A stretch of DNA of 64,000 bases, taken from positions 1 to 64,000 of the forward strand of contig JAFWNG010000041.1 in the NCBI GenBank assembly GCA_017510405.1, in the 5' to 3' direction. The notes beneath the pieces were generated by a model. It was not told the origin of the DNA and searched no databases. It worked only from the letters and a program-made list of their open reading frames with translations. Position numbers and translations under genes: made by a program. This stretch comes from Solobacterium sp. GTDB lineage: Bacteria > Bacillota_I > Bacilli_A > Erysipelotrichales > Erysipelotrichaceae. Within the stretch, counting starts at the first letter, position 1. Every line of letters starts with the position of its first letter. This document shows, piece after piece, positions 20,121-31,429 of this stretch.

Positions 20121-21068
20121 ATGTCCGTTAATAACTGTTTTCGGTTATCAGCAGGATCGTTTTCATCTTTTAAACTGAAGGAGATGACAAAGAAGTATTA
20201 CAGAAGCAGAGGGCTTGCCAGCATACCTTATGAGGCGGAAGAAAAAGATATCATCTTTGAAACACCGGACGGCGATATCCGCAGTTCCTGGTCGCTGAAC
20301 GAGTTTCACCGTGTTCCCGGTGAAGAAGTATCCCGTATCCCCAAACACTGGCACCGCGCCCTGGAAATCATTATTCCGGTATCTGCCAATGCGGAAGTAT
20401 GGATCAGCAGCAAGCGACACATCGTGGAGCCGGGCAATATGATCATCGTGAACTGCGGTGTGATCCACGAAAGCCGCCGGCAGGACTATTCCCTTGCCTA
20501 CTATGGTTATGCACTGCAGTATTCCCGTGACTTTCTGCAGTCCATGGTCGACGATTTTGATATGCTCAGTTTTCCGGAAGAGCCGCTTCCCCTGCCGGAC
20601 GGACTTCTGGATAATATCAGAAACGCACTCTCATCATCCCGTCCCCATGACGAATACGACAGACTGCGCACCTCTCTGCTCATGAACCGTTTTCTTCTCT
20701 TTCTGCTGGAAAACTATGCCCGGCGCTCTGTCGACGCTGTGCCGGAAGCAGAACGGGATATCGTATATCTTGCCATGTCCCGTATTGAAGCGGAAGCGTA
20801 TACCGAACTGAGTCTGCAGAATCTTGCGGATGCCCTTCATGTATCGTATGCGTACCTTTCCCGCCGTTTCCGCAGCCGCATGGGCATGACGATGCTGGAA
20901 TACCGCGACCGCATCCGCATTGAGACTGCGCGCCGTCTTCTCACCACCGGCGAACCGCTGGAATCCATTGCCCGCAGCCTTGGCTACAAAGGGTATACCC
21001 AGTTTTCACGTACCTTTCAGCAATACTGCAGCTGTACCCCTGCAGCCTACCGGAAAAACAAGTCATAA
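20121..21068 (+). CDS. AraC family transcriptional regulator with cupin sensor
   Basis: A protein of up to 315 residues. The N-terminal half is cupin-like (IPKHWHRALEIIIPV and the following EPGNMIIVNCGVIHES), the usual ligand pocket of sugar-responsive AraC regulators. The C-terminal 100 residues form the two HTH motifs, with LSLQNLADALHVSYAYLSRRF and ESIARSLGYKGYTQFSRTFQ. The start is uncertain: the ATG at 20121 lacks a ribosome site, while the ATG at 20184 is preceded by AAGGAG with no spacing. It lies upstream of the secreted esterase gene on the same strand and may regulate it. Confidence 0.88.
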   Translation: MSVNNCFRLSAGSFSSFKLKEMTKKYYRSRGLASIPYEAEEKDIIFETPDGDIRSSWSLNEFHRVPGEEVSRIPKHWHRALEIIIPVSANAEVWISSKRHIVEPGNMIIVNCGVIHESRRQDYSLAYYGYALQYSRDFLQSMVDDFDMLSFPEEPLPLPDGLLDNIRNALSSSRPHDEYDRLRTSLLMNRFLLFLLENYARRSVDAVPEAERDIVYLAMSRIEAEAYTELSLQNLADALHVSYAYLSRRFRSRMGMTMLEYRDRIRIETARRLLTTGEPLESIARSLGYKGYTQFSRTFQQYCSCTPAAYRKNKS

Positions 21069-21174
21069 TCCGTTCACATGAAGTCACGAATCAGCATTTC
21101 GGCGAACATGCCGGAATGCTATTTTTTGTTTAGTGAATGCTTTTCGCATACCGGAAAGAAAGGAGAATATCATT

Positions 21175-24100
21175 GTGAACCTGAAGAGACTTGCCGCATT
21201 ATTTGCGGCCTCCTCTACCCTGATCGCAGGTCTTCATACACCTGTGATCGCCGAAGAGCCGGATGTTTCCGAAGAACCGGAGATCACTGAAGTTTCAGAG
21301 ACTCCTGAGATCACTGAAGAGGAAGAAATCAAAGAGACCGAAGTGATCGAAGAAGCGGAAGAACCAGAAGTGTCTGAAACAGCTGAGACTTCGGAAGAAG
21401 GTGAACCGGAGCCGGAACAGCCGGGTGAACCCGCTGATCCCGAAGAACCGGAGGAACCGGAAGAACCCGCTCAGTCTGCCGTGATCCAGTCGATCACTGC
21501 CGACACACGCGCCGGTGACGGCGGCCGGGAGGTGTGGTCATTTGTGATCACAGTCGATGACGCTGCCAAGATCGCAGATCTCGCAGCTGAAGACTTCGAC
21601 ATCCTCAACAACAGCCATTCCCACTACTACAGTGGGGATAACTCCATCGGAGTTCCGTACGATGATGACGGCATCACCCTGACTGTGAATGATGCAGTCA
21701 TCACGATGAACGTCAGGCCGTTCCGCTATGACGGCATGGTCAAGGCAGACTTCAGCGCCGTTCCATGGGAAGTCGTATGCGCCAGAGATGCAGGACTGTC
21801 CTTCACGGCGGAAAATGTCACCACGGTCAAAACGAACATCCTGGACGAGGCTGCCCGCAAAGAGATCACATACGCCGGCCTGACCCGCAAATATGCTCTC
21901 TATGTACCGAAAGACGACCGCGGCAATCCCAAAAAGAATGTTCCCCTGGTCATCTGGAACCACGGCGGCGGCGAATACAACATCGACATCGAAGCTACGC
22001 TGCTTGCCAACCGCGGCCTGACCGCCTGGAATGAACAGGGTTATGAGTGCGCAGTCCTTGTCATGCAGGTTGCCAATCCCAACTACAGCTACGGCGCTGC
22101 CAATGATGAGAACAAGAAGAAACTCATTGACCAGAACAATGCTGTACAGGCAGAGATCATCCGCCGGCTGATCCACGAAGGCACTGTCGACCCGACAAGA
22201 GTCTATGTGACAGGCGCTTCCTCCGGCGGCGGCGCAACGATGCGCTTCCTGATGCAGTACCCGGAACTGTTCGCCGGCGCGATCGCCATGTGCTCCATGG
22301 ACCCGATCGTCTGGATCCACCACAATAGTAATTTCGAGTATGCAGCGGCTGTATCCGGGTTCGAAGAAGCCTGGAAAGGCAGTGTGTATACATGGGATGC
22401 AGAAGCGGAAGCGATGGTTGAAAAGAACGTAAATACACAGGCACTGCTGAATGTACCGATCTATTTCACCCATGCAGAAAACGATCCGACCTGCTCCGTC
22501 AACTCCTCGAAGACCATGTACGACGCCTTCAAAAACCTCGGCGACACAAACAATAAGATCAAAATCTACTCTGACGAAGACATGGCCGCGGCTGACATCG
22601 GAAGCGCTCTCGGCTACGCTCTGTATCACTGGAGCTGGTGCAATGTCTTCAACGAAGTGAAGTACGGCGGTGAAGAAACGCCGATGCACTGGCTGTTCCA
22701 GCAGAAGAAGGAACTCACAGCCGTTGAAGTCGAATCCATCGAAGCACTCGCAAAAGTCGGCGACGGCGCAGTCGAAGTCAGCACATTCAGAATCACTGTA
22801 AAAGAAGGATATGCAGACAAGATCGCCGGCCTCACAGCAGCGGACTTCGAGATTTCCAACAACAGCCATTCGCATTACTTCAACGTCGACGGTTCCATAG
22901 GCGTCCCGTATGAAGACGATGAGATCGAAGTCTCCGTCGAAGGAAACGTCATCACCCTGAAGGCAAAGCCGTTCCGCTACAACGGAATGGTCTCAGCCAG
23001 CTTCGCGGATGTTCCGTGGGAGGTCAAATGCTTTGCCGTCGAAGGCCTGGATTTCAAGAAGGAAAACGTCACGTCCCTGAAGACGAACATTCTGGATGAA
23101 GCAGAACGCAAAGAGATCACCTATGCCGGTCTGACCCGCAGATACGCCCTGTATGTTCCGAAGGATGAAAACGGCGAACCGAAGAAAGATCTGCCGCTTG
23201 TCATCTGGAACCACGGCGGCGGTGAATACAACATCGACATCGAAGCTACTCTGCAGGCCAACCGCGGCCTCACAGCCTGGAACGAACAGGGCTATGAGTG
23301 CGCAGTCCTCGTCATGCAGGTCGCCAACGCCAACTACAGCTACGGCGCTGCGAATGATGAAAACAAGAAGAAGCTCATCGACCAGAACAACGCTGTCCAG
23401 GCAGAGATCGTCCGCCAGCTCATCGCAGCCGGCACGGTCAACGAAGACAGAGTCTATGTGACCGGTGCTTCCTCCGGCGGCGGTGCAACGATGCGCTTCC
23501 TGATGCAGTATCCGGAACTGTTTGCCGGTGCGATCGCCATGTGCTCCATGGACCCGATCGTCCATGTCCACCAGAACCGCCAGTTCAACTACAACACAGC
23601 TGTATCGCAGTTTGAAGACGCATGGCAGGGCACCGTCTACACATGGAGCGAAGATGAACAGGCCATGGTGAAGAAGTATGTCGATACGAATACACTCATC
23701 AATGTGCCGATCTATTACACGCATGCGGAAAAGGATCCGACCTGCTCTGTCAACTCCTCGAAGACCATGTATGACTCCTTCAAAAACCTCGGCGATGAAA
23801 ACGACATGATCCGCATCTACTCCGAAGATGACATGACCGCTGCCGGCATCTCCAGCGCCAGCAATTACGGCCTGTATCACTGGAGCTGGGTCAACGTCTT
23901 CAACGAAGTGAAATACGGCGAAGAAGAAACACCGATGCACTGGCTCTTCGAACAGGTACGCACCAAAGCGGAAGAAGATCCCGCCGCGGTAAAAGTAGAA
24001 AACATCGAAGCATTCGCCAAAGTTGGCGACGGCGCAGTCGAAGTATACAAGTTCGAGATCACCATTGCCGAAAAAGACGCCGCGAAGATCGCCGACCTCA

Positions 24101-25989
24101 AGGCTGAGGACTTCGACATCCTGAACAACGGCCACTCCCACTACATCGACCTCGACGGCACCGGCGGAAACCGCTATGAAGACGATGAGATCTCTGTAAC
24201 AGTCGATGGCAGCAAGATCACCCTGACGGCACGTCCGTTCCGTTATCCGGGCATCATCGAAGCCGACCTGTCCACCGTCACCCCGTGGGAAGTCGTCTGT
24301 GAGAAGATCCCTGCCCTGTCCTTCAATGAAAAGAAGGTCCTGAAGCTCCACACGAACATCCTGGATGAAGCGGAACGCAAGTCCATCACATATGCCGGCA
24401 TCACACGTCAGTATGCCCTGTATGTACCGAAGGATGAAAACGGCAATCCGAAGAAGGATGTCCCGTTAGTGATCTGGAACCACGGCGGCGGTGAATACAG
24501 AGTCAATATTGAAGTGACCCTGACCGCGAACCGCGGCATGACCGCATGGAATGAACAGGGCTATGAATGCGCTGTCCTCGTTATGCAGGTATCCAACGCC
24601 AACTACAGCTACCGGGCAGCCACCAATGAATCCAAGAAGAGACAGATCGACCAGAACAACGCTCTGCAGGCCGAGATCGTCCGCCAGCTGATCGAAGAAG
24701 GAACCGTCAATAAAGACAGAGTCTATGTGACAGGCGCTTCCTCCGGCGGCGGTGCGACGATGCGCTTCCTGATGCAGTATCCGGAAATGTTTGCCGGTGC
24801 GATCGCCATGTGCTCCATGGACCCGATCGTATGGGTACACCAGAATCCGAACTTCGACTATGACACATGTGTATCCGAGTTCGAAGAAGCATGGAAAGGC
24901 AAAGTATACACATGGGATGCGGAAGCCAATGCAATGGTCGAGAAGGACGTTGATACAGAAGCACTGCTCAATGTACCGATCTACTTCACACACGCAGAAA
25001 AGGATCCTACATGCTCTGTGAACTCTTCCAAAGCAATGTACGACTCCATGAAGAATCTGGGTGATGAAAACAACATGATCCGGATCTACTCTGAGGATGA
25101 CATGACCGCTGCAGGCATCTCCAACGGTCTGAACTACGGTCTGTATCACTGGAGCTGGGTCAACGTCTTCAACGAAGTGAAGTACGGCAGCGAAGAAACA
25201 CCGATGCACTGGCTGTTTGAGCAGACCAACGCAGCCACTCCGGAAGAACTGATCGAAGCATTCGTGACCCGTCTCTATGAACTCTGTCTGGACCGTGAAC
25301 CGGATGAGGAAGGATTCGAGACATGGTGCACACTGCTCAGCGACGGCAGGATCACCGCTGCCGAAGCAGTCCAGGGCTTCTTCAACAGTCCGGAAATGAA
25401 TCAGAAGGAACTGACGGATGAAGAATGGGTCGAAAAGTGCTATGAAGTCATTCTCGGCAGATCCAGTGACGGTGAAGAAGGCGCAGGCTGGGCGGAAACA
25501 CGCAGCAAAGGCGTATCCAACAACTACATCCTGAAGGGATTTGTGGAAAGCGAAGAATTCAAACAGATCGCTGCGGAATACGGCCTCGATCCGGGAAAGA
25601 TCGAACTGAACGAAGCACGTGACCAGAACCCGGACATTACCGAGTTCATCAGCCGCTGCTACACGGAAGCACTGGGAAGAAAAGGCGATCCTGCCGGCAT
25701 CAATACCTGGTGTGCAAAGATCCTGAGTGCAGCGAACAGTAAGCAGGCCGCGATCGAAACGGTGTCCAACGGCTTCCTCCACTCTCCGGAGTTTGTGAAC
25801 AGGAAAACGACCGATGAGCAGTATGTCACGATCCTGTACCGGACATTCCTGGGAAGAGATCCGGATACCGCCGGATACAACGGATGGGTAAACCGTCTCA
25901 AGTCCGGCATAAGCCGTGATTCCGTCATGATGGGATTTGCATATTCGAAAGAGTTTACCGATCTCATGGCAAAATACGGAATCAGATAA
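21175..25989 (+). CDS. Secreted triple-module esterase with DUF4214 repeats
   Basis: A 1604-residue secreted protein. The start is GTG at 21175, 8 nt after AAAGGAGA; this gives the signal peptide MNLKRLAALFAASSTLIAGL ending near VIA-EE. An acidic Glu/Pro linker (about residues 27-100) leads to three near-identical 415-residue modules. Each has an Ig-like subdomain and an alpha/beta-hydrolase esterase with LVIWNHGGGEYN, the nucleophile elbow GASSGGGATMRF, an acidic A-E-[NK]-DPTCS and histidine in YHWSW. All three catalytic sets are intact. Four 50-residue units with LGR-x-D and W motifs (two DUF4214 domains) form the C-terminus. No LPXTG is seen. A plausible role is de-esterifying host or plant glycans; the substrate is unknown. 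Confidence 0.85.
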   Translation: MNLKRLAALFAASSTLIAGLHTPVIAEEPDVSEEPEITEVSETPEITEEEEIKETEVIEEAEEPEVSETAETSEEGEPEPEQPGEPADPEEPEEPEEPAQSAVIQSITADTRAGDGGREVWSFVITVDDAAKIADLAAEDFDILNNSHSHYYSGDNSIGVPYDDDGITLTVNDAVITMNVRPFRYDGMVKADFSAVPWEVVCARDAGLSFTAENVTTVKTNILDEAARKEITYAGLTRKYALYVPKDDRGNPKKNVPLVIWNHGGGEYNIDIEATLLANRGLTAWNEQGYECAVLVMQVANPNYSYGAANDENKKKLIDQNNAVQAEIIRRLIHEGTVDPTRVYVTGASSGGGATMRFLMQYPELFAGAIAMCSMDPIVWIHHNSNFEYAAAVSGFEEAWKGSVYTWDAEAEAMVEKNVNTQALLNVPIYFTHAENDPTCSVNSSKTMYDAFKNLGDTNNKIKIYSDEDMAAADIGSALGYALYHWSWCNVFNEVKYGGEETPMHWLFQQKKELTAVEVESIEALAKVGDGAVEVSTFRITVKEGYADKIAGLTAADFEISNNSHSHYFNVDGSIGVPYEDDEIEVSVEGNVITLKAKPFRYNGMVSASFADVPWEVKCFAVEGLDFKKENVTSLKTNILDEAERKEITYAGLTRRYALYVPKDENGEPKKDLPLVIWNHGGGEYNIDIEATLQANRGLTAWNEQGYECAVLVMQVANANYSYGAANDENKKKLIDQNNAVQAEIVRQLIAAGTVNEDRVYVTGASSGGGATMRFLMQYPELFAGAIAMCSMDPIVHVHQNRQFNYNTAVSQFEDAWQGTVYTWSEDEQAMVKKYVDTNTLINVPIYYTHAEKDPTCSVNSSKTMYDSFKNLGDENDMIRIYSEDDMTAAGISSASNYGLYHWSWVNVFNEVKYGEEETPMHWLFEQVRTKAEEDPAAVKVENIEAFAKVGDGAVEVYKFEITIAEKDAAKIADLKAEDFDILNNGHSHYIDLDGTGGNRYEDDEISVTVDGSKITLTARPFRYPGIIEADLSTVTPWEVVCEKIPALSFNEKKVLKLHTNILDEAERKSITYAGITRQYALYVPKDENGNPKKDVPLVIWNHGGGEYRVNIEVTLTANRGMTAWNEQGYECAVLVMQVSNANYSYRAATNESKKRQIDQNNALQAEIVRQLIEEGTVNKDRVYVTGASSGGGATMRFLMQYPEMFAGAIAMCSMDPIVWVHQNPNFDYDTCVSEFEEAWKGKVYTWDAEANAMVEKDVDTEALLNVPIYFTHAEKDPTCSVNSSKAMYDSMKNLGDENNMIRIYSEDDMTAAGISNGLNYGLYHWSWVNVFNEVKYGSEETPMHWLFEQTNAATPEELIEAFVTRLYELCLDREPDEEGFETWCTLLSDGRITAAEAVQGFFNSPEMNQKELTDEEWVEKCYEVILGRSSDGEEGAGWAETRSKGVSNNYILKGFVESEEFKQIAAEYGLDPGKIELNEARDQNPDITEFISRCYTEALGRKGDPAGINTWCAKILSAANSKQAAIETVSNGFLHSPEFVNRKTTDEQYVTILYRTFLGRDPDTAGYNGWVNRLKSGISRDSVMMGFAYSKEFTDLMAKYGIR
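21478..22713 (+). repeat. Esterase module, copy 1 (direct repeat about 1.24 kb)
   Basis: First of three tandem in-frame repeats, each with an Ig-like part and an esterase part. It is highly similar to the next two at nucleotide level, especially across the nucleophile elbow at about 22200-22315. Confidence 0.8.
22714..23985 (+). repeat. Esterase module, copy 2
   Basis: Second tandem copy, starting near the codons for AVEVESIEALAKVGDG. The elbow region at about 23457-23570 is almost identical to copy 1. Confidence 0.8.
23986..25230 (+). repeat. Esterase module, copy 3
   Basis: Third tandem copy, starting near the codons for AVKVENIEAFAKVGDG and ending at MHWLFEQ. It is somewhat more divergent in the Ig-like half than copies 1 and 2 are from each other. 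Confidence 0.8.
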
Positions 25990-26002: not shown

Positions 26003-26037
26003 AGACCGGCAGAAAAGACTGCCGGTCTTTTCTTTTT
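26003..26037 (+). terminator. Rho-independent terminator of the esterase gene
   Basis: Stem AGACCGGCAG / CTGCCGGTCT with loop AAAAGA, then a T-rich tract. It begins 14 bp after the stop codon. Confidence 0.9.
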
Positions 26038-26091: not shown

Positions 26092-27912
26092 TCAGTGTTC
26101 GCCGAATACGATGAGACTGTCTGAGCCTTTAATCTCAGCCGTTTCATCAAGCGACGGATTGAACCGGTAACTGCCGTTATTTGTCATATAGCCGAGGAAG
26201 ATATATCCCTGCCTGAAGAGGATCTGCCGCAGCTGTCTGACGGTATAGGAACCGGTGCAGTTCAGGTTGGAAGCCCGCTTCATATACACTTCATTGCCTT
26301 CATTGGACAGGATCTCCCGGAAGGCGCCGAGCAGCTGCGGACTTTCCGCCAGCTGTGCCAGCAGCAGCGAAGACATGCTGGAGGCAACGATGAAGTCGGT
26401 ACGGTCGCCATAGGCGATCAGGGACTGGTTGCTCTCTTTGCGCATCTCGGCAGTGATATTGTAGTGCAGATGGTATTTATCCCGCAGTTCCCGCAGATTC
26501 AGCAGAAGGAAGATCGTATTCATATCGGCTTCTTCCTCGTCGCCGTAGTTGCTGAGGAGAATGATGTGTTCCGCGTTTCTTGTGATCTCCAGAAGCTTTC
26601 GTTCGTTCCTGGTGTCGCCTTCCGCCAGTTCCAGAACGATATCCCGTTCTTCGCAGATCGACCGGATCAGTTCCTCGTTGTAATGATCCCAGTTGACGAG
26701 CGTGACCTTGCGTACGTTTTCCGGCAGTTCCCGCAGTACGACTTTCAGACTGCTGCGGTTGCCGAAGACCAACGTCTCCGTGGTCCGCTCCGGCTTTACC
26801 GGCACATACTCCGCATCGTCCGAAAGAATATCCCCTTCTTCCCGCAGTACCGCGGAATCACTGTCTTCCGCAAATGCAAGAATGCGGTCGCTTTCCTGTA
26901 CAGTCATGTTCCCTTCCGGGTTCATATACATCTCATGATCATGCCAGATGCCTACCGGCACACCGCTGTCCATACGCCGCATCACTTCGGCAAACGTCAG
27001 CCCGGCAAATCCGCCGGCAGGGATCATGTACAGTTCAGAGCCTTCAAAATTGAAGATCTCCCGGAACACTTCGGAAAGACCGGTCTGTGTACAGGAGTGG
27101 GCAATGATCTTAGCCAGTGTATCGTTTGCCTGCAGTGTGATCACATTCAGCTTCTTCGCAAGCAGAGGCGGAAACCGGTTTTCTTCCTTGGAAAGGATCG
27201 CGTTGACACGCACGCTGCTTTTTCCCGTTTCATGGAGGAGAGACGATACTGCCAGCAGGATCTTGACCGTGGTGCTGTCATCGGTCGGACTGACCAGTAT
27301 GGTGCGGCATGTACGCACAGAAAGCTTTTCCATGGAGCCGGGATCGAAGGGATCGATCGTGCGGCAGATCACGCGCACATTTTTCGGAACATCCACATTG
27401 TCCGCGATATACTGCTCTGTTTCGTCACGCTCCATTTCCGCGCCGATCACGATCGTGCACGGATCATCCCCCGCTGCCAGGATCAGCTGCCTTAACAGCG
27501 TATATTCGCCCGGATAGAAGCCGATGAGGATGATATGTCCGGACTCGATCACGGCAGAGTTTCCCCTGCGCAGACCCACGATGCGCTCTTCGATCGCACT
27601 GGTCACGATACCGATGAGCACGCTGGTTACCAGGAGACCGGCAAACGCCGTCAGCGCCATGATGATCAGATAACCCGGTGAACCTTCCTCATAGGACGGC
27701 ATCCACGCATTGATGATCGTAGCGATACTGTTCCACAGCACCCCTGCCCCTTCCTGCTCTCCGTTAAAACCGAACAGCAGGATCAGTCCCGTCATCAGCA
27801 GTACAAACAATACAGAGAATATAACCAGTATGCGGATCAGACCGATACTCCCTCTGGACATATGCCGGTCAAACCAGTACCGTATCCGCTCTCTCAATGT
27901 CGGTGTTTCCAT
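26092..27912 (-). CDS. CASTOR/POLLUX-type ion channel protein
   Basis: A 606-residue membrane protein. Two spans lie near residues 22-47 and 79-104, separated by a re-entrant pore-like loop (GVLWNSIATIINAW). RCK-like nucleotide-binding domains follow, with SGHIILIGFYPGEYTLLRQL near residue 124 and further Rossmann segments near 370 and 440. The SAIEERIVGLRRGNSAVIESGH join is characteristic of the plant CASTOR/POLLUX and bacterial homologue family. The ion carried is unknown; calcium or potassium have been proposed for relatives. It is a single gene with its own terminator, divergent from the Rpn gene. Confidence 0.85.
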   Translation of the reverse strand: METPTLRERIRYWFDRHMSRGSIGLIRILVIFSVLFVLLMTGLILLFGFNGEQEGAGVLWNSIATIINAWMPSYEEGSPGYLIIMALTAFAGLLVTSVLIGIVTSAIEERIVGLRRGNSAVIESGHIILIGFYPGEYTLLRQLILAAGDDPCTIVIGAEMERDETEQYIADNVDVPKNVRVICRTIDPFDPGSMEKLSVRTCRTILVSPTDDSTTVKILLAVSSLLHETGKSSVRVNAILSKEENRFPPLLAKKLNVITLQANDTLAKIIAHSCTQTGLSEVFREIFNFEGSELYMIPAGGFAGLTFAEVMRRMDSGVPVGIWHDHEMYMNPEGNMTVQESDRILAFAEDSDSAVLREEGDILSDDAEYVPVKPERTTETLVFGNRSSLKVVLRELPENVRKVTLVNWDHYNEELIRSICEERDIVLELAEGDTRNERKLLEITRNAEHIILLSNYGDEEEADMNTIFLLLNLRELRDKYHLHYNITAEMRKESNQSLIAYGDRTDFIVASSMSSLLLAQLAESPQLLGAFREILSNEGNEVYMKRASNLNCTGSYTVRQLRQILFRQGYIFLGYMTNNGSYRFNPSLDETAEIKGSDSLIVFGEH

Positions 27913-28073
27913 GTCTGCCTCCCTCTCTATCCCGTGATTCCATTGTATTACGTAATTCCCTGATAAAACATGACCGGCAAAAAAGTAGTATGTTTACACC
28001 AATGTCTTCTTTCATTGAATGACCCTGCTTCATTTTTTTCTGTCTGCCTCTTCCTGTTCGCCCCATCCATTGT

Positions 28074-28091
28074 TATACTGTATTCAGTATA
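28074..28091. promoter_or_regulatory. Inverted repeat upstream of the Rpn gene
   Basis: A perfect TATACTG-N4-CAGTATA dyad lies about 75 bp before the start of the Rpn-family gene and 40 bp before the small leader frame. It could be an operator or part of the promoter (TATAGT overlaps it). No regulator is known. Confidence 0.35.
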
Positions 28092-28129
28092 GTACGTTTA
28101 TCCGTATATTCTGCTTTGCGGAGGTGATC

Positions 28130-28156
28130 ATGCTTTCTCTGGAATATATGCATTGA
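28130..28156 (+). CDS. Possible 8-residue leader peptide
   Basis: A tiny frame MLSLEYMH is preceded by GGAGGTGATC, a near-perfect Shine-Dalgarno 3 nt from its ATG. Its stop codon overlaps the ribosome site of the Rpn gene, so its translation could couple to or modulate that gene. There is no other support, and chance is possible. Confidence 0.25.
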   Translation: MLSLEYMH

Positions 28157-28167
28157 AGGGAGAGTAT

Positions 28168-29304
28168 ATGCTAAAGCCAAAGCTGATCAATATTCAGGAT
28201 ATGCGTCTTCTGGATGATGCATTCTTTGCCGCAGCCATGCAGAACTGTATTCCTGCTGCAGAAGCACTTCTGCATTGTCTATGCGGGGATACCAGCCAGC
28301 ACGTGATCCGCAGTCAGATCCAGGATTTTCTTCCAAATCTTCAGGGAAGAGCGGTCAACTGTGACCTGGTCATATACAGTTCTGACGGTACTGTCTGGAT
28401 CGTTGAAGTTCAGCGCAGCAGAAAAGGCGCCAGACCGCACCGTTCCCGCTATATCGCCAGTGCCTGGGATCATCAGAGTCTTCCAAAAGGAACACTGTGG
28501 AACAAACTATCAAGGCTTCGAATCGTCTTTATCACAGAGTCCGACTGCATCGGCAACGGGGAACCGGTCAATTATTACCTGCGGAAAAACCAGTTTTTCA
28601 ATGATATCCTTGCGGATGATCTTGTCGTTATGTATGTAAACTGTTCCTGTAACGGAAAGAAAAGATCCGGACTTGACGCACTGATCCACGACATGAAATG
28701 CAAAGATCCAGAAACAATGTATATTCCCGCATTACGGGACAGATGCAGTGAACTGAAAAATACAAGAGGAGGAAATACTATTATGTCTGAATACATCATG
28801 AGAGTGTATGGAGATGAGATCCGCATCAAAGCCGGCAATCTTGCCAGGGACATGGCGCAGGACATGGCGCAGGACATGGCACGAAACATGGCGCACGATA
28901 TGGCACAGGACATGGCACGAGATATGGCACAGGACATGGCACGAGATATGGCGCACGACATGGCACACGACATGGCACAGGATATGGCGCAGGACATGGC
29001 GCACGACATGGCACAGGATATGGCGCACGACATGGCACACGACATGGCACACGACATGGCACAGGATATGGTACAGGATATAGCCAGAAAAAAAGTACGC
29101 AAAGTAAAGCAGAAAGCCAGAAAGAGACTCAAAAAAAGACAGGGAAAACTAATTGTTTCTCTCTATGAATATTTACATAACGAAAAGCCGGGATTCTCTG
29201 TCACAGAGATCACACGGCAAATATCGGATATTTCAGGTATTTCCAGAGAACGTATCCTTCACACTCTGACCAAAAAGAAGCTGATTCCGCAGGAATCCGT
29301 GTGA
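28168..29304 (+). CDS. Rpn/PD-(D/E)XK nuclease-transposase family protein with DMAx repeats
   Basis: A 378-residue protein from the ATG at 28168, after AAGGGAGAG. Residues 1-220 match the Rpn (recombination-promoting nuclease, putative transposase) family. The nuclease core is D66 in NCDLVIYSS and E80-V-Q82 in WIVEVQRSRKG, followed by HRSRYIASAWDH. Residues 228-303 are nineteen tetrapeptides D-[MI]-A-[QHR], probably helical. A lysine/arginine-rich stretch and a 60-residue C-terminal domain follow. Rpn proteins cut DNA and some repeat-bearing members act in phage defence. The repeat makes length variation likely. Confidence 0.8.
   Translation: MLKPKLINIQDMRLLDDAFFAAAMQNCIPAAEALLHCLCGDTSQHVIRSQIQDFLPNLQGRAVNCDLVIYSSDGTVWIVEVQRSRKGARPHRSRYIASAWDHQSLPKGTLWNKLSRLRIVFITESDCIGNGEPVNYYLRKNQFFNDILADDLVVMYVNCSCNGKKRSGLDALIHDMKCKDPETMYIPALRDRCSELKNTRGGNTIMSEYIMRVYGDEIRIKAGNLARDMAQDMAQDMARNMAHDMAQDMARDMAQDMARDMAHDMAHDMAQDMAQDMAHDMAQDMAHDMAHDMAHDMAQDMVQDIARKKVRKVKQKARKRLKKRQGKLIVSLYEYLHNEKPGFSVTEITRQISDISGISRERILHTLTKKKLIPQESV
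28849..29076 (+). repeat. Nineteen tandem 12-bp units inside the Rpn gene
   Basis: Units of the form GAYATGGCRCRN (GACATGGCGCAG, GACATGGCACAC, GATATGGCACAG, GACATGGCACGA and variants) run without a break for 228 bp. A twentieth half-unit GATATAGCC follows. Because 12 is divisible by 3, gain or loss of units keeps the frame. Confidence 0.95.
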
Positions 29305-29333
29305 GCATGCTGCAGGATCTTTGTGTACTTCAC

Positions 29334-29361
29334 AAAAAGAAGCAGGCCTACACCTGCTTCT
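29334..29361 (-). terminator. Terminator of the PTS operon
   Basis: On the minus strand, AGAAGCAGG / CCTGCTTCT with a short loop is followed by TTTTT. The stem overlaps the stop codon of the 90-residue membrane protein gene. In the plus direction the tract is weaker, but it may also serve the Rpn gene. Confidence 0.75.
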
Positions 29362-29620
29362 TCCTTTCGCGTTCTGCAGCGTCCAGTATTTTTTCAACAT
29401 TGCGCCTGCCGTTGGTAATGCCTCTGTGCAGCGTCATGGCAATAAACATGGCTGCCACTGCCAGAAGCACACCGGCCGTGATATAAAAGCCATTGCTCTT
29501 GTATATGCCGAACCACGCGATCACAACACCGATTCCGGAGATCACGATTGCAATGGTGCGCCACGAGGCAATACGGCGAAGCGCTGCCGTCTGCATCTCA
29601 GCTTCTTTGATCAGATCCAT
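29348..29620 (-). CDS. Small two-span membrane protein at the end of the PTS operon
   Basis: A 90-residue protein with two hydrophobic segments near residues 21-39 and 45-66 and a charged C-terminus (NVEKILDAAERERKKQV). I do not recognise the family. It is the last gene of the PTS operon, 116 bp after the IID gene and separated from it by a strong hairpin. It may assist the permease, but nothing in the sequence shows this. Confidence 0.65.
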   Translation of the reverse strand: MDLIKEAEMQTAALRRIASWRTIAIVISGIGVVIAWFGIYKSNGFYITAGVLLAVAAMFIAMTLHRGITNGRRNVEKILDAAERERKKQV

Positions 29621-29646
29621 ATATTGTGCACCCCCTCATGGAAAGC

Positions 29647-29681
29647 GAACAGCAGATCTGTGCGGTGCAGATCTGCTGTTC
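29647..29681 (-). other. Strong intergenic hairpin in PTS operon
   Basis: A perfect 14-bp stem (GAACAGCAGATCTG and its complement) with a seven-base loop sits between the IID gene and the small membrane gene. It lacks a T tract, so it is more likely an mRNA processing or stability element than a terminator. Confidence 0.6.
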
Positions 29682-29736
29682 CAGCAAAGAAAAGAAACAA
29701 TAACAGAAAGAAAGGGGAACAATACGTTTTCTTTGC

Positions 29737-30579
29737 TCAGTATGTCAGACCCGGATCGAAGAATCCGACCAGAACACCGACGAAAGCAATGACAACGAGC
29801 AGCAGCATTACTTTGATCGGGGACAGTCTCTTCTTCGCCATGAGCCACCAGCACAGGATGACGAAGCATGCTGTGAGGATGCCTGGGAATACACTGTCGA
29901 GTTTTTCCTGCAGTACCATGTATGCTTCGCCTGCTTCATTGAACAGAGCAAAACTTGTCTTGACGCTTACCCATGTTGCGGATACGGCACCGATGACGAT
30001 TCCGCCCAGTGTCGTAACAGCTTCACGAATGGCTTCACCGATATCGCCGATCAGGAATTCAACTGCTTTTGTACCAAGTTCATAGCCCTTGAAGTACAGC
30101 ATCTTCATTCCGAAGTATGCGAACAGGTTCCAGACTACGATATAGAAGATCGGTCCCATCGGGCTTCCGCCGGAGGACATACCCATGGCGATACCGAGAA
30201 GGATCGGGATAACTGTACCGACGACCAGAGAGTCACCGATACCGGCGATCGGGCCCATAAGACCGGCACGCAGACCGTTGATGGTTTCATCGTCTACGTC
30301 TTCCTGTCCGTTTGCACGAGCCTCTTCCAGACCGGCTGTGATACCGACTACGACAGTACCGAGCTGCGGCTCAGTATTGAAGAATGCGGTATATGTGTTC
30401 ATCGCTTCAGCTTTTTTGTCATCGTTGCCTGCATACAGTTCATCTACCAGCGGGAGCATTGCGCACAGATAGCCGAATGTCTGCATGTGTTCCTGCGAGA
30501 AGCAGGTCAGATTTCCGTAGTACCAGTTATGGAAACTCTTGGTAAGAGCCTTTTTAGACAGTTTCTTAGCCTCTGTCAT
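29737..30579 (-). CDS. PTS mannose/fructose/sorbose family IID component
   Basis: About 280 residues from the ATG at 30579, which follows GAGGAGG by 9 nt and the IIC stop by 1 bp. The N-terminus LTKSFHNWYYGNLTCFSQEHMQTFGYLCAM is the IID family start, given here as residues 10-40. The central region has LMGPIAGIGDSLVVGTVIPIL near residue 110. The C-terminus has hydrophobic spans. IID pairs with IIC as the membrane sugar channel of a mannose-class PTS. The substrate is not certain; the 6-phospho-beta-glucosidase nearby hints at a beta-glucoside. Confidence 0.92.
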   Translation of the reverse strand: MTEAKKLSKKALTKSFHNWYYGNLTCFSQEHMQTFGYLCAMLPLVDELYAGNDDKKAEAMNTYTAFFNTEPQLGTVVVGITAGLEEARANGQEDVDDETINGLRAGLMGPIAGIGDSLVVGTVIPILLGIAMGMSSGGSPMGPIFYIVVWNLFAYFGMKMLYFKGYELGTKAVEFLIGDIGEAIREAVTTLGGIVIGAVSATWVSVKTSFALFNEAGEAYMVLQEKLDSVFPGILTACFVILCWWLMAKKRLSPIKVMLLLVVIAFVGVLVGFFDPGLTY

Positions 30580-30580
30580 G

Positions 30581-31429
30581 TCAGATATCCTCCTCATCAT
30601 CGTCAAAGTCCGCTGCTGCGCCTGCTGCGGCCGGCTTTCTCAGCTGGAGAAGCTTCAGCTTGTAGATCAGGATGGCGAACATACCTGCTACGACGGTAGC
30701 GGATACCAGGTTGATTCCCATGGATGCTGCAAGTGTGAATCCGAACAGATACGGAATGAAGTCTGCAGCGTTCCGAACGATCTGCTTAAGCAGAATGGCA
30801 ATACCTACACACGGTAAGAGGGAACCGACTGTGAACAGTGTCTTCATTGCAATGCCGTCCATCGGCAGAGCAACTTTGATCGCGTCAACAACATTTGCAC
30901 CGAGTTTGCACATGATGACTGTCGGGATCAGAGAGAAGCAGATATGGGAGATCCACGGATAAACCATGTCTACCATGTAGAGCTGCTTGTAATTGCGCTT
31001 TTCAACAGCTGTCCAGCCGATGTGCTGCCATAACAGGTTCATCGTAGCTGTGCCGTAGAACAGAACGGTACCGATCGTACCGACCATGGTACCGAAGGAT
31101 GTAGCCAGAGCTGCGCCGTCAGCGGAAGCAGCGTCGAGGCCGTAGCTCTTAAGAGCTACCATTGCGAGAGGAATACCGATATAGGATACGGCACGTACGT
31201 CCGCAGATACCGTTCCGCCCGGAGTGACCAGTGCGATATAAACGACCTGCATCGCCGCACCGACCATGACACCGGTCGCTATGTCACCGAGAATGATTCC
31301 GCAGACAAGTCCGCCGACGAGCGGTCTTCCCAGCGTATAGTTACCGATGGAAGTGCCGCCCATACCGGGCATACTTGAAAGGGATGCAAATAAACCAAGC
31401 AGGATAGCCTGCAGCCAGCTGATTGTCAT
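30581..31429 (-). CDS. PTS mannose/fructose/sorbose family IIC component
   Basis: A 282-residue polytopic permease subunit. It starts MTISWLQAILLGLFASLSSM, then GRPLVGGLVCGIILGDIATG near residue 34 and MVGAAMQVVYIALVTPGGTV near residue 55, as in the IIC family. The acidic tail DFDDDEEDI is unusual but short. It translocates the sugar together with IID while IIB phosphorylates it. It lies 22 bp after the IIB gene. Confidence 0.92.
   Translation of the reverse strand: MTISWLQAILLGLFASLSSMPGMGGTSIGNYTLGRPLVGGLVCGIILGDIATGVMVGAAMQVVYIALVTPGGTVSADVRAVSYIGIPLAMVALKSYGLDAASADGAALATSFGTMVGTIGTVLFYGTATMNLLWQHIGWTAVEKRNYKQLYMVDMVYPWISHICFSLIPTVIMCKLGANVVDAIKVALPMDGIAMKTLFTVGSLLPCVGIAILLKQIVRNAADFIPYLFGFTLAASMGINLVSATVVAGMFAILIYKLKLLQLRKPAAAGAAADFDDDEEDI

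Follow-up and report, generated by a model that had tools for sequence, protein, structure and literature searches.

The window analysed here, a 64,000-nucleotide stretch of the genome (G000) of a rumen Solobacterium, contains a gene for a natural chain with three active sites, a number that differs between species, and the question it raises is how such a chain is kept at the cell surface and how its repeated modules arose. The protein ends in DUF4214 domains, on which the literature is sparse although they occur on dozens of proteins in this genome that appear to be secreted. We consider it likely that the product is an AraC-regulated, secreted triple-module esterase held at the wall by DUF4214, and that DUF4214 is an exchangeable, general module for non-covalent wall retention. 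The layout of the protein, its triads, the selection on the modules, the age of the array and the distribution and exchanges of the tail are results of computation; secretion, wall binding, catalytic activity, avidity and regulation by the adjoining AraC-family protein are features that we infer from sequences and structure models.

The gene is a single open frame on the plus strand (21175..25989; 1604 aa) that starts with GTG at 21175, 9 nt after an RBS-like AAGGAG read by eye at 21160..21165 (GGAG 21162-21165). It encodes, in order, a 26-aa signal peptide ending in VIA-EE (21175..21252; identified by eye in the translation, without a predictor), a Glu/Pro-rich acidic linker (21253..21480; limits likewise set by eye), three in-frame modules and four DUF4214 units. 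The modules (21517..22761, 22762..24027 and 24028..25242) form direct repeats with spacings of 1251 and 1266-1269 nt, and each comprises an Ig-like domain of ~118 residues followed by an alpha/beta-hydrolase domain; in module 2 the Ig-like part extends to ~23115. Ser (codons 22219-22221, 23470-23472 and 24739-24741), Asp (22483-22485, 23734-23736 and 25003-25005) and His (22627-22629, 23878-23880 and 25147-25149) are present in all three copies, the surrounding motifs GASSGGG, HAExDPTC and YHWSW are intact in each, and the triad residues are invariant across 12/12 aligned modules. All three modules are probably active. The 250-residue tail (25237..25986) matches DUF4214 (PF13946) with 168 bits (cut-off 23.2), in four stretches (25255-25404, 25372-25566, 25612-25755 and 25771-25965). 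The initial annotation had described three in-frame repeats followed by DUF4214 units, with the triad kept in every copy, and this layout stands. The array is unlikely to be an assembly artefact, since the copies have diverged too far for misassembly and an independently assembled relative (L009) carries orthologues of modules 2 and 3 and of the tail.

The window protein matched none of three patterns for sorting-type endings, its tail had no match to an anchor family, and the Pfam scan listed no choline-binding repeat family in it; the chain simply ends in DUF4214. Since a sortase is encoded in G000, a sorting route is available to this organism, which counts against an anchoring role for DUF4214. 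Across the genome, the tail profile and PF13946 together gave 121 DUF4214 matches in 30 ORFs, 29 of which were read; the thirtieth, at the start of contig C6, was left out. The DUF4214 block is C-terminal in 20 of the 29 and precedes the enzyme part in the other nine, and a pattern search found no LPXTG-like ending among them. By eye, 27/29 begin in a signal-peptide-like manner; of the remaining two, L052 has a hydrophobic core but no in-frame start codon and L051 is truncated where its contig stops. All 29 therefore look secreted, two of them lacking a full N-terminus. Their Pfam passengers include VanY, GH25, a C39-like peptidase, CHAP, beta-lactamase-like, transglutaminase, subtilase and class 3 lipase domains, as well as LRR_5, DUF285 and Big_2, the LRR/Big_2 chains being adhesin-like; several ORFs had no other Pfam match. 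Within the genus, DUF4214 was found in 6/70 genomes and in none of the other 64, with at least 23 matches each in G000, G213, G219, G240 and G241 and four in G237, in a survey whose scoring was limited to 70 places per genome for G000 and G219.

An indirect indication of what the tail does comes from homologous enzymes of relatives that carry a different C-terminus. Among 20 VanY loci, three (G000, G219 and G241) have four DUF4214 units each and two (G228 and G234) have at least eight choline-type repeats, while the remaining 15 lack DUF4214 and carry a single choline-type repeat or none. The VanY domains themselves remain similar to that of G000 (69% identity in G241, 68% in G228 and 66% in G234), and the tail assignments are far over the Pfam cut-offs (DUF4214 177-185 bits vs Choline_bind_3 253 bits in G228 and 209 bits in G234). 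Likewise, among 23 GH25 loci, DUF4214 is found in G000, G241 and G240 and at least three choline-type repeats in G235, G227, G236 and G237 (the G237 fragment having no GH25 listed by the Pfam scan at its threshold); of the rest, G102 has two choline-type repeats and the others none. The GH25 gene of G219 (L109) contains an in-frame TAG, indicating a pseudogene or an assembly error, and was left out of these classes. Among the four esterase loci with an assigned C-terminus, DUF4214 ends the protein in G000 and G219, a choline-type end is found in G232 and a sorting-signal-like end in G554. The G232 assignment is below cut-off (Choline_bind_3 24.9 bits vs 27; G232 as a whole has 76 matches to this family), and that of G554 rests on anchor models below their cut-offs. 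Judged from these sequences, replacement of DUF4214 by choline-binding repeats appears clear for VanY and GH25 and weak for the esterase.

Choline-binding repeats (PF19127, PF01473) are a non-covalent wall-targeting part that, like DUF4214, is present in multiple copies and occupies the same position in the VanY and GH25 relatives, whereas their sequence is unrelated to that of DUF4214, whose tail is predicted to be all-helical. The replacement of DUF4214 by such repeats or by sorting-like ends in relatives supports its identification as a wall-retention module, and the proposal of the initial annotation that the tail substitutes for a sorting signal in attaching the enzyme is thereby well supported, if indirectly. 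The exchanges also provide a direct test, as the same enzyme occurs naturally with either anchor. The two modules are not strictly exclusive, since 4/29 DUF4214 ORFs of G000 also carry one choline-type repeat, two of these over the Pfam cut-off. In the three genes of L061 and in L060:6998-8542, DUF4214 and one choline-type repeat lie ahead of the C-terminal part, and these genes are possible intermediates of anchor exchange. Mutual exclusion at the level of whole genomes was considered and rejected: none is shared between the five DUF4214-rich and the seven choline-rich genomes, as expected by chance (Fisher p=1), and when any copy is counted, with 136 first-look candidates rather than scored matches for G219, the overlap is three genomes (p=0.68). 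LicD-like genes, first named by eye and then confirmed, lie directly 3' of the choline-type VanY genes of G228 and G234, and a LicC/LicA-like gene, identified by eye, adjoins the DUF4214 VanY of G241 (L086, L092 and L085 being the loci of all three genomes). These neighbours suggested phosphocholine as the DUF4214 ligand, a candidate not supported by the occurrence of LicD in 2/5 DUF4214-rich genomes (G000 and G241) vs 7/7 choline-rich ones; it was not found in G213, G219 and G240, which are 70-85% complete.

A DUF4214 role in surface display has a precedent outside this genus. In segmented filamentous bacteria, DUF4214 is described as probably anchoring multiple proteins that are predicted to lie at the surface (PMC12780176), and peptides of DUF4214 proteins are reported from gut luminal fluid (PMC6034559). 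The proteins of segmented filamentous bacteria (PF13946) belong to other bacteria and are likened to ours by description; the evidence of exchange with choline-binding repeats comes from the genus studied here. Among publications judged mostly by title and the start of the abstract, we found none on this esterase or on DUF4214/choline-binding exchange; the surface-anchor role has already been proposed.

The AlphaFold2 model of the tail is all-helical (pLDDT 95.5), and its first half matches the phycobilisome linker 3pru (Z 11.7, rmsd 3.1 over 115 residues). Phycobilisome linkers are also the best PDB sequence matches of the tail profiles, at a weak E of 0.003-0.014, and some DUF4214 arrays of G000 match the linker family PF00427 over its cut-off. 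A DUF4214 pair shares the linker fold, but sits on secreted proteins of a Gram-positive lineage that has no phycobilisome; it is not known to share the function of the linkers, about which a common fold says nothing certain. The host is placed among Erysipelotrichia by way of its relative L009. RsaA, which we take to carry DUF4214 in InterPro, had no sequence match with the two DUF4214 profiles. A relationship to this S-layer anchor (PMC6978808) was accordingly rejected, the match of its lipopolysaccharide-binding domain to the tail (VIA-align Z 3.6) being too weak to weigh. A more specific version of the wall-retention reading holds that DUF4214 is a helical, linker-fold wall-binding module that constitutes a complete alternative means of display, and that lineages of the genus kept VanY, GH25 and this esterase but exchanged their anchors between choline-binding repeats and DUF4214, probably because the wall ligand changed; we put this forward tentatively, at somewhat less than an even chance. 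Phycobilisome linkers bind proteins and not glycans, which we count against wall binding, and the tail might instead be a protein-protein connector that builds an extracellular layer or complex. Linkers being its foremost structural and PDB sequence matches, and its presence on 30 ORFs, would suit such a shared scaffold. DUF4214 nevertheless stands where choline-binding repeats stand in VanY and GH25, as expected of a wall-targeting part, and we regard the connector as unlikely.

In the reading that we prefer, the AraC-family protein encoded next door would regulate the esterase gene and the enzyme would be inducible. The esterase would be secreted and then kept outside the cell wall by its four-unit tail, and three active sites on each displayed chain would increase activity locally against an ester-bearing polymer close to the cell. 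DUF4214 would be a lineage-wide part for non-covalent retention, interchangeable with the choline-binding repeats found in the homologous enzymes of congeners.

The three modules had been described as near-identical, and recent duplication or ongoing gene conversion had been proposed to account for this. We compared the window modules (W1-W3) with one another and with the last three modules (S1-S3) of the sister species Solobacterium sp. RGIG7085. W1-W3 are pairwise only 74-76% identical in both protein and DNA, with an NG86 dS of 0.85-1.07 and a dN of ~0.19. By contrast, W2 and S2 are 96% and W3 and S3 94% identical, and both pairings are supported at 99-100. Modules 2 and 3 therefore have positional orthologues in the sister species and the array is older than that split, so the proposed recent duplication is not supported, with dS between copies about 1. 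S1 resembles W1 (78% identity, dS 0.94) no more than paralogues do, which suggests turnover at the N-terminal end of the array, unless S1 is not the first module there. Since dN is far under dS, both between copies and between species (0.03 vs 0.29-0.52 for modules 2 and 3), all three modules are under purifying selection.

Evidence for gene conversion was obtained for the sister species and not for the window copies. At the sites where W2 and S2 differ, each paralogue was scored for agreement with one or the other: S1 agrees with S2 along an unbroken run of 13 out of 68 sites (p=0.0026), indicating one short tract between sister-species copies 1 and 2, whereas W1, W3 and S3 showed no long run in this labelled-site test (p 0.31-0.84), the longest runs of W1 and W3 being 4-5 sites. 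When the longest identical run was compared with codon shuffles, low p values were obtained for S1/S2 (0.002), R1/R2 (0.000), W2/W3 (0.004; 43 nt) and W1/W3 (0.024) and the other seven of 11 pairs were not significant; the long runs lie mostly in conserved stretches, which the codon shuffle does not model. A recent duplication of the array, or its homogenisation in this genome through gene conversion, would be consistent with the 43-nt W2/W3 run, the sister-species tract and the nucleotide identity of the blocks flanking the active-site nucleophile (76-84%, vs 68-71% in the Ig-like part), as well as with the start of a second module in G228 that is identical to the first at 57/60 nt. Against it stand the dS between window copies, the well-supported grouping of W2 with S2 and of W3 with S3, the negative labelled-site tests and a low core dS that is also seen between orthologues, so that constraint accounts for much of it. 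We therefore hold recent origin or homogenisation to be improbable, and for this genome already largely refuted.

The species genome collection yielded a single relative, the sister-species contig (L009, from sheep rumen), which shares 9000 identical bases with contig C68 of G219; because L009 begins inside a module, G219/RGIG7085 has at least three. Modules were found in 4/70 genomes of the genus: three copies in G000, at least three in G219, three in G232 and a single listed module in G228, where the second-module start described above lies at the contig end. A family-level sample yielded 2/195 genomes, G000 and G028 (at least two tandem copies, in masked sequence), and a phylum-level sample 2/392, G000 and G554 (one copy). 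The number of modules thus varies between species (one, at least two, three and at least three). The G232 protein (L076) resembles that of the window in its three modules and in the AraC regulator upstream but has a choline-type C-terminus in place of DUF4214, and its modules form a clade of their own (99/99), which implies that amplification occurred more than once or that the G232 copies were homogenised. In G554, from another family of the same order, the protein (L078) has the same Ig-like and catalytic module at 59-61% aa identity but in one copy, and ends in VKTGD, a hydrophobic stretch and Lys-Lys, an arrangement that resembles a sorting signal and scores below the NCBIfam cut-offs.

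These endings bear on a further alternative, in which the protein is freely secreted and the tail binds an external substrate, for example as a carbohydrate-binding part. Polymer-degrading enzymes often carry binding modules, and the esterase has no covalent anchor signal. Its homologues, however, end in cell-wall-binding or sorting-like parts instead, and DUF4214 is also attached to VanY and GH25, whose target is the cell's own wall, and to adhesin-like chains, which have no substrate in common; we hold free secretion to be improbable.

Both sequence and fold assign the catalytic modules to the same relative. By sequence, the solved protein nearest to the modules is Thermotoga maritima EstA (PDB 3DOH/3DOI; Levisson et al. 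2009, cited in PMC6182558 and PMC10189120), with an E of 6.8e-21 for the match to 3DOH. An AlphaFold2 model of module 2, built from a 12-sequence alignment (pLDDT 79.8), likewise has 3DOH as its top fold match (Z 24.7, rmsd 4.4, 315 residues aligned; Foldseek E 5.1e-16), with an alignment that covers model residues 1-399, the Ig-like part included. The alignment to 3DOH confirmed the GxSxG nucleophile and the Ser-Asp-His triad. The window modules share with EstA an Ig-like domain fused N-terminally to the alpha/beta-hydrolase, and their GxSxG, the Asp of HAExDP and the near-end His align with those of EstA, at ~25% identity; EstA differs in having one copy per chain (375-380 residues), where the window protein has three together with a linker and a surface tail. 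Ig-type esterases are already known, as are tandem catalytic modules in general. Acetylxylan, feruloyl and PHB esterases are also among the fold neighbours of module 2, the CE1-type and feruloyl esterases at Z 17-19 alongside many other hydrolases. The NCBIfam label for the whole protein, a secreted short-chain polyhydroxyalkanoate depolymerase of type 1 (NF050058; 185.8 bits, cut-off 150), has a fold neighbour of module 2 in its favour (PHB depolymerase 8DAJ, Z 19.1) but was rejected as very improbable, because the scores of three copies add up to that pass while each window module reaches 66.0-70.4 bits, under half of the cut-off, and a single-module relative 63 bits, and because both sequence and fold clearly match EstA best. 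HMM scores added over repeats can thus pass a cut-off missed by every single copy, a warning for the annotation of repeated proteins. Besides the AraC regulator, the genes read near the esterase gave no polysaccharide-locus clue to its substrate.

This regulator is encoded directly upstream on the plus strand (20121..21068) and has a cupin-type sensor domain (HTH_18 78.3 bits, AraC_binding 22.9 bits). AraC homologues are located directly upstream of the esterase genes of G228 (39.6%) and G232 (35.9%), so that the regulator is linked in all three loci of the genus whose upstream side is present (G219 and G028 are cut), whereas tblastn at 1e-3 detected none in the neighbourhood of the G554 gene. 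On the plus strand, one terminator-like hairpin separates the AraC gene from the esterase (21093..21120; 12 pairs and a T run, found by consensus scan) and another lies 3' of the esterase (26003..26028; 10 pairs and a T-rich tail); as eight such sites were found vs 6.8 expected, they are weak evidence of termination. No promoter-like site was found in the stretch that separates the two genes; the hairpin at 21093-21120 may reflect attenuation, or a promoter may have been missed.

Downstream, the region 26092-30606 corresponds to L009 4458-7616, and the ion-channel-like gene and PTS genes keep their order in RGIG7085, where there is no room between them for the gene at 28153-29304. This gene encodes a predicted PD-(D/E)XK-type transposase or nuclease, with a Pfam match below cut-off, and contains 19 tandem copies of a 12-bp unit (28848-29078), an array that is translated as a DMAx protein repeat and is likely to vary in length.
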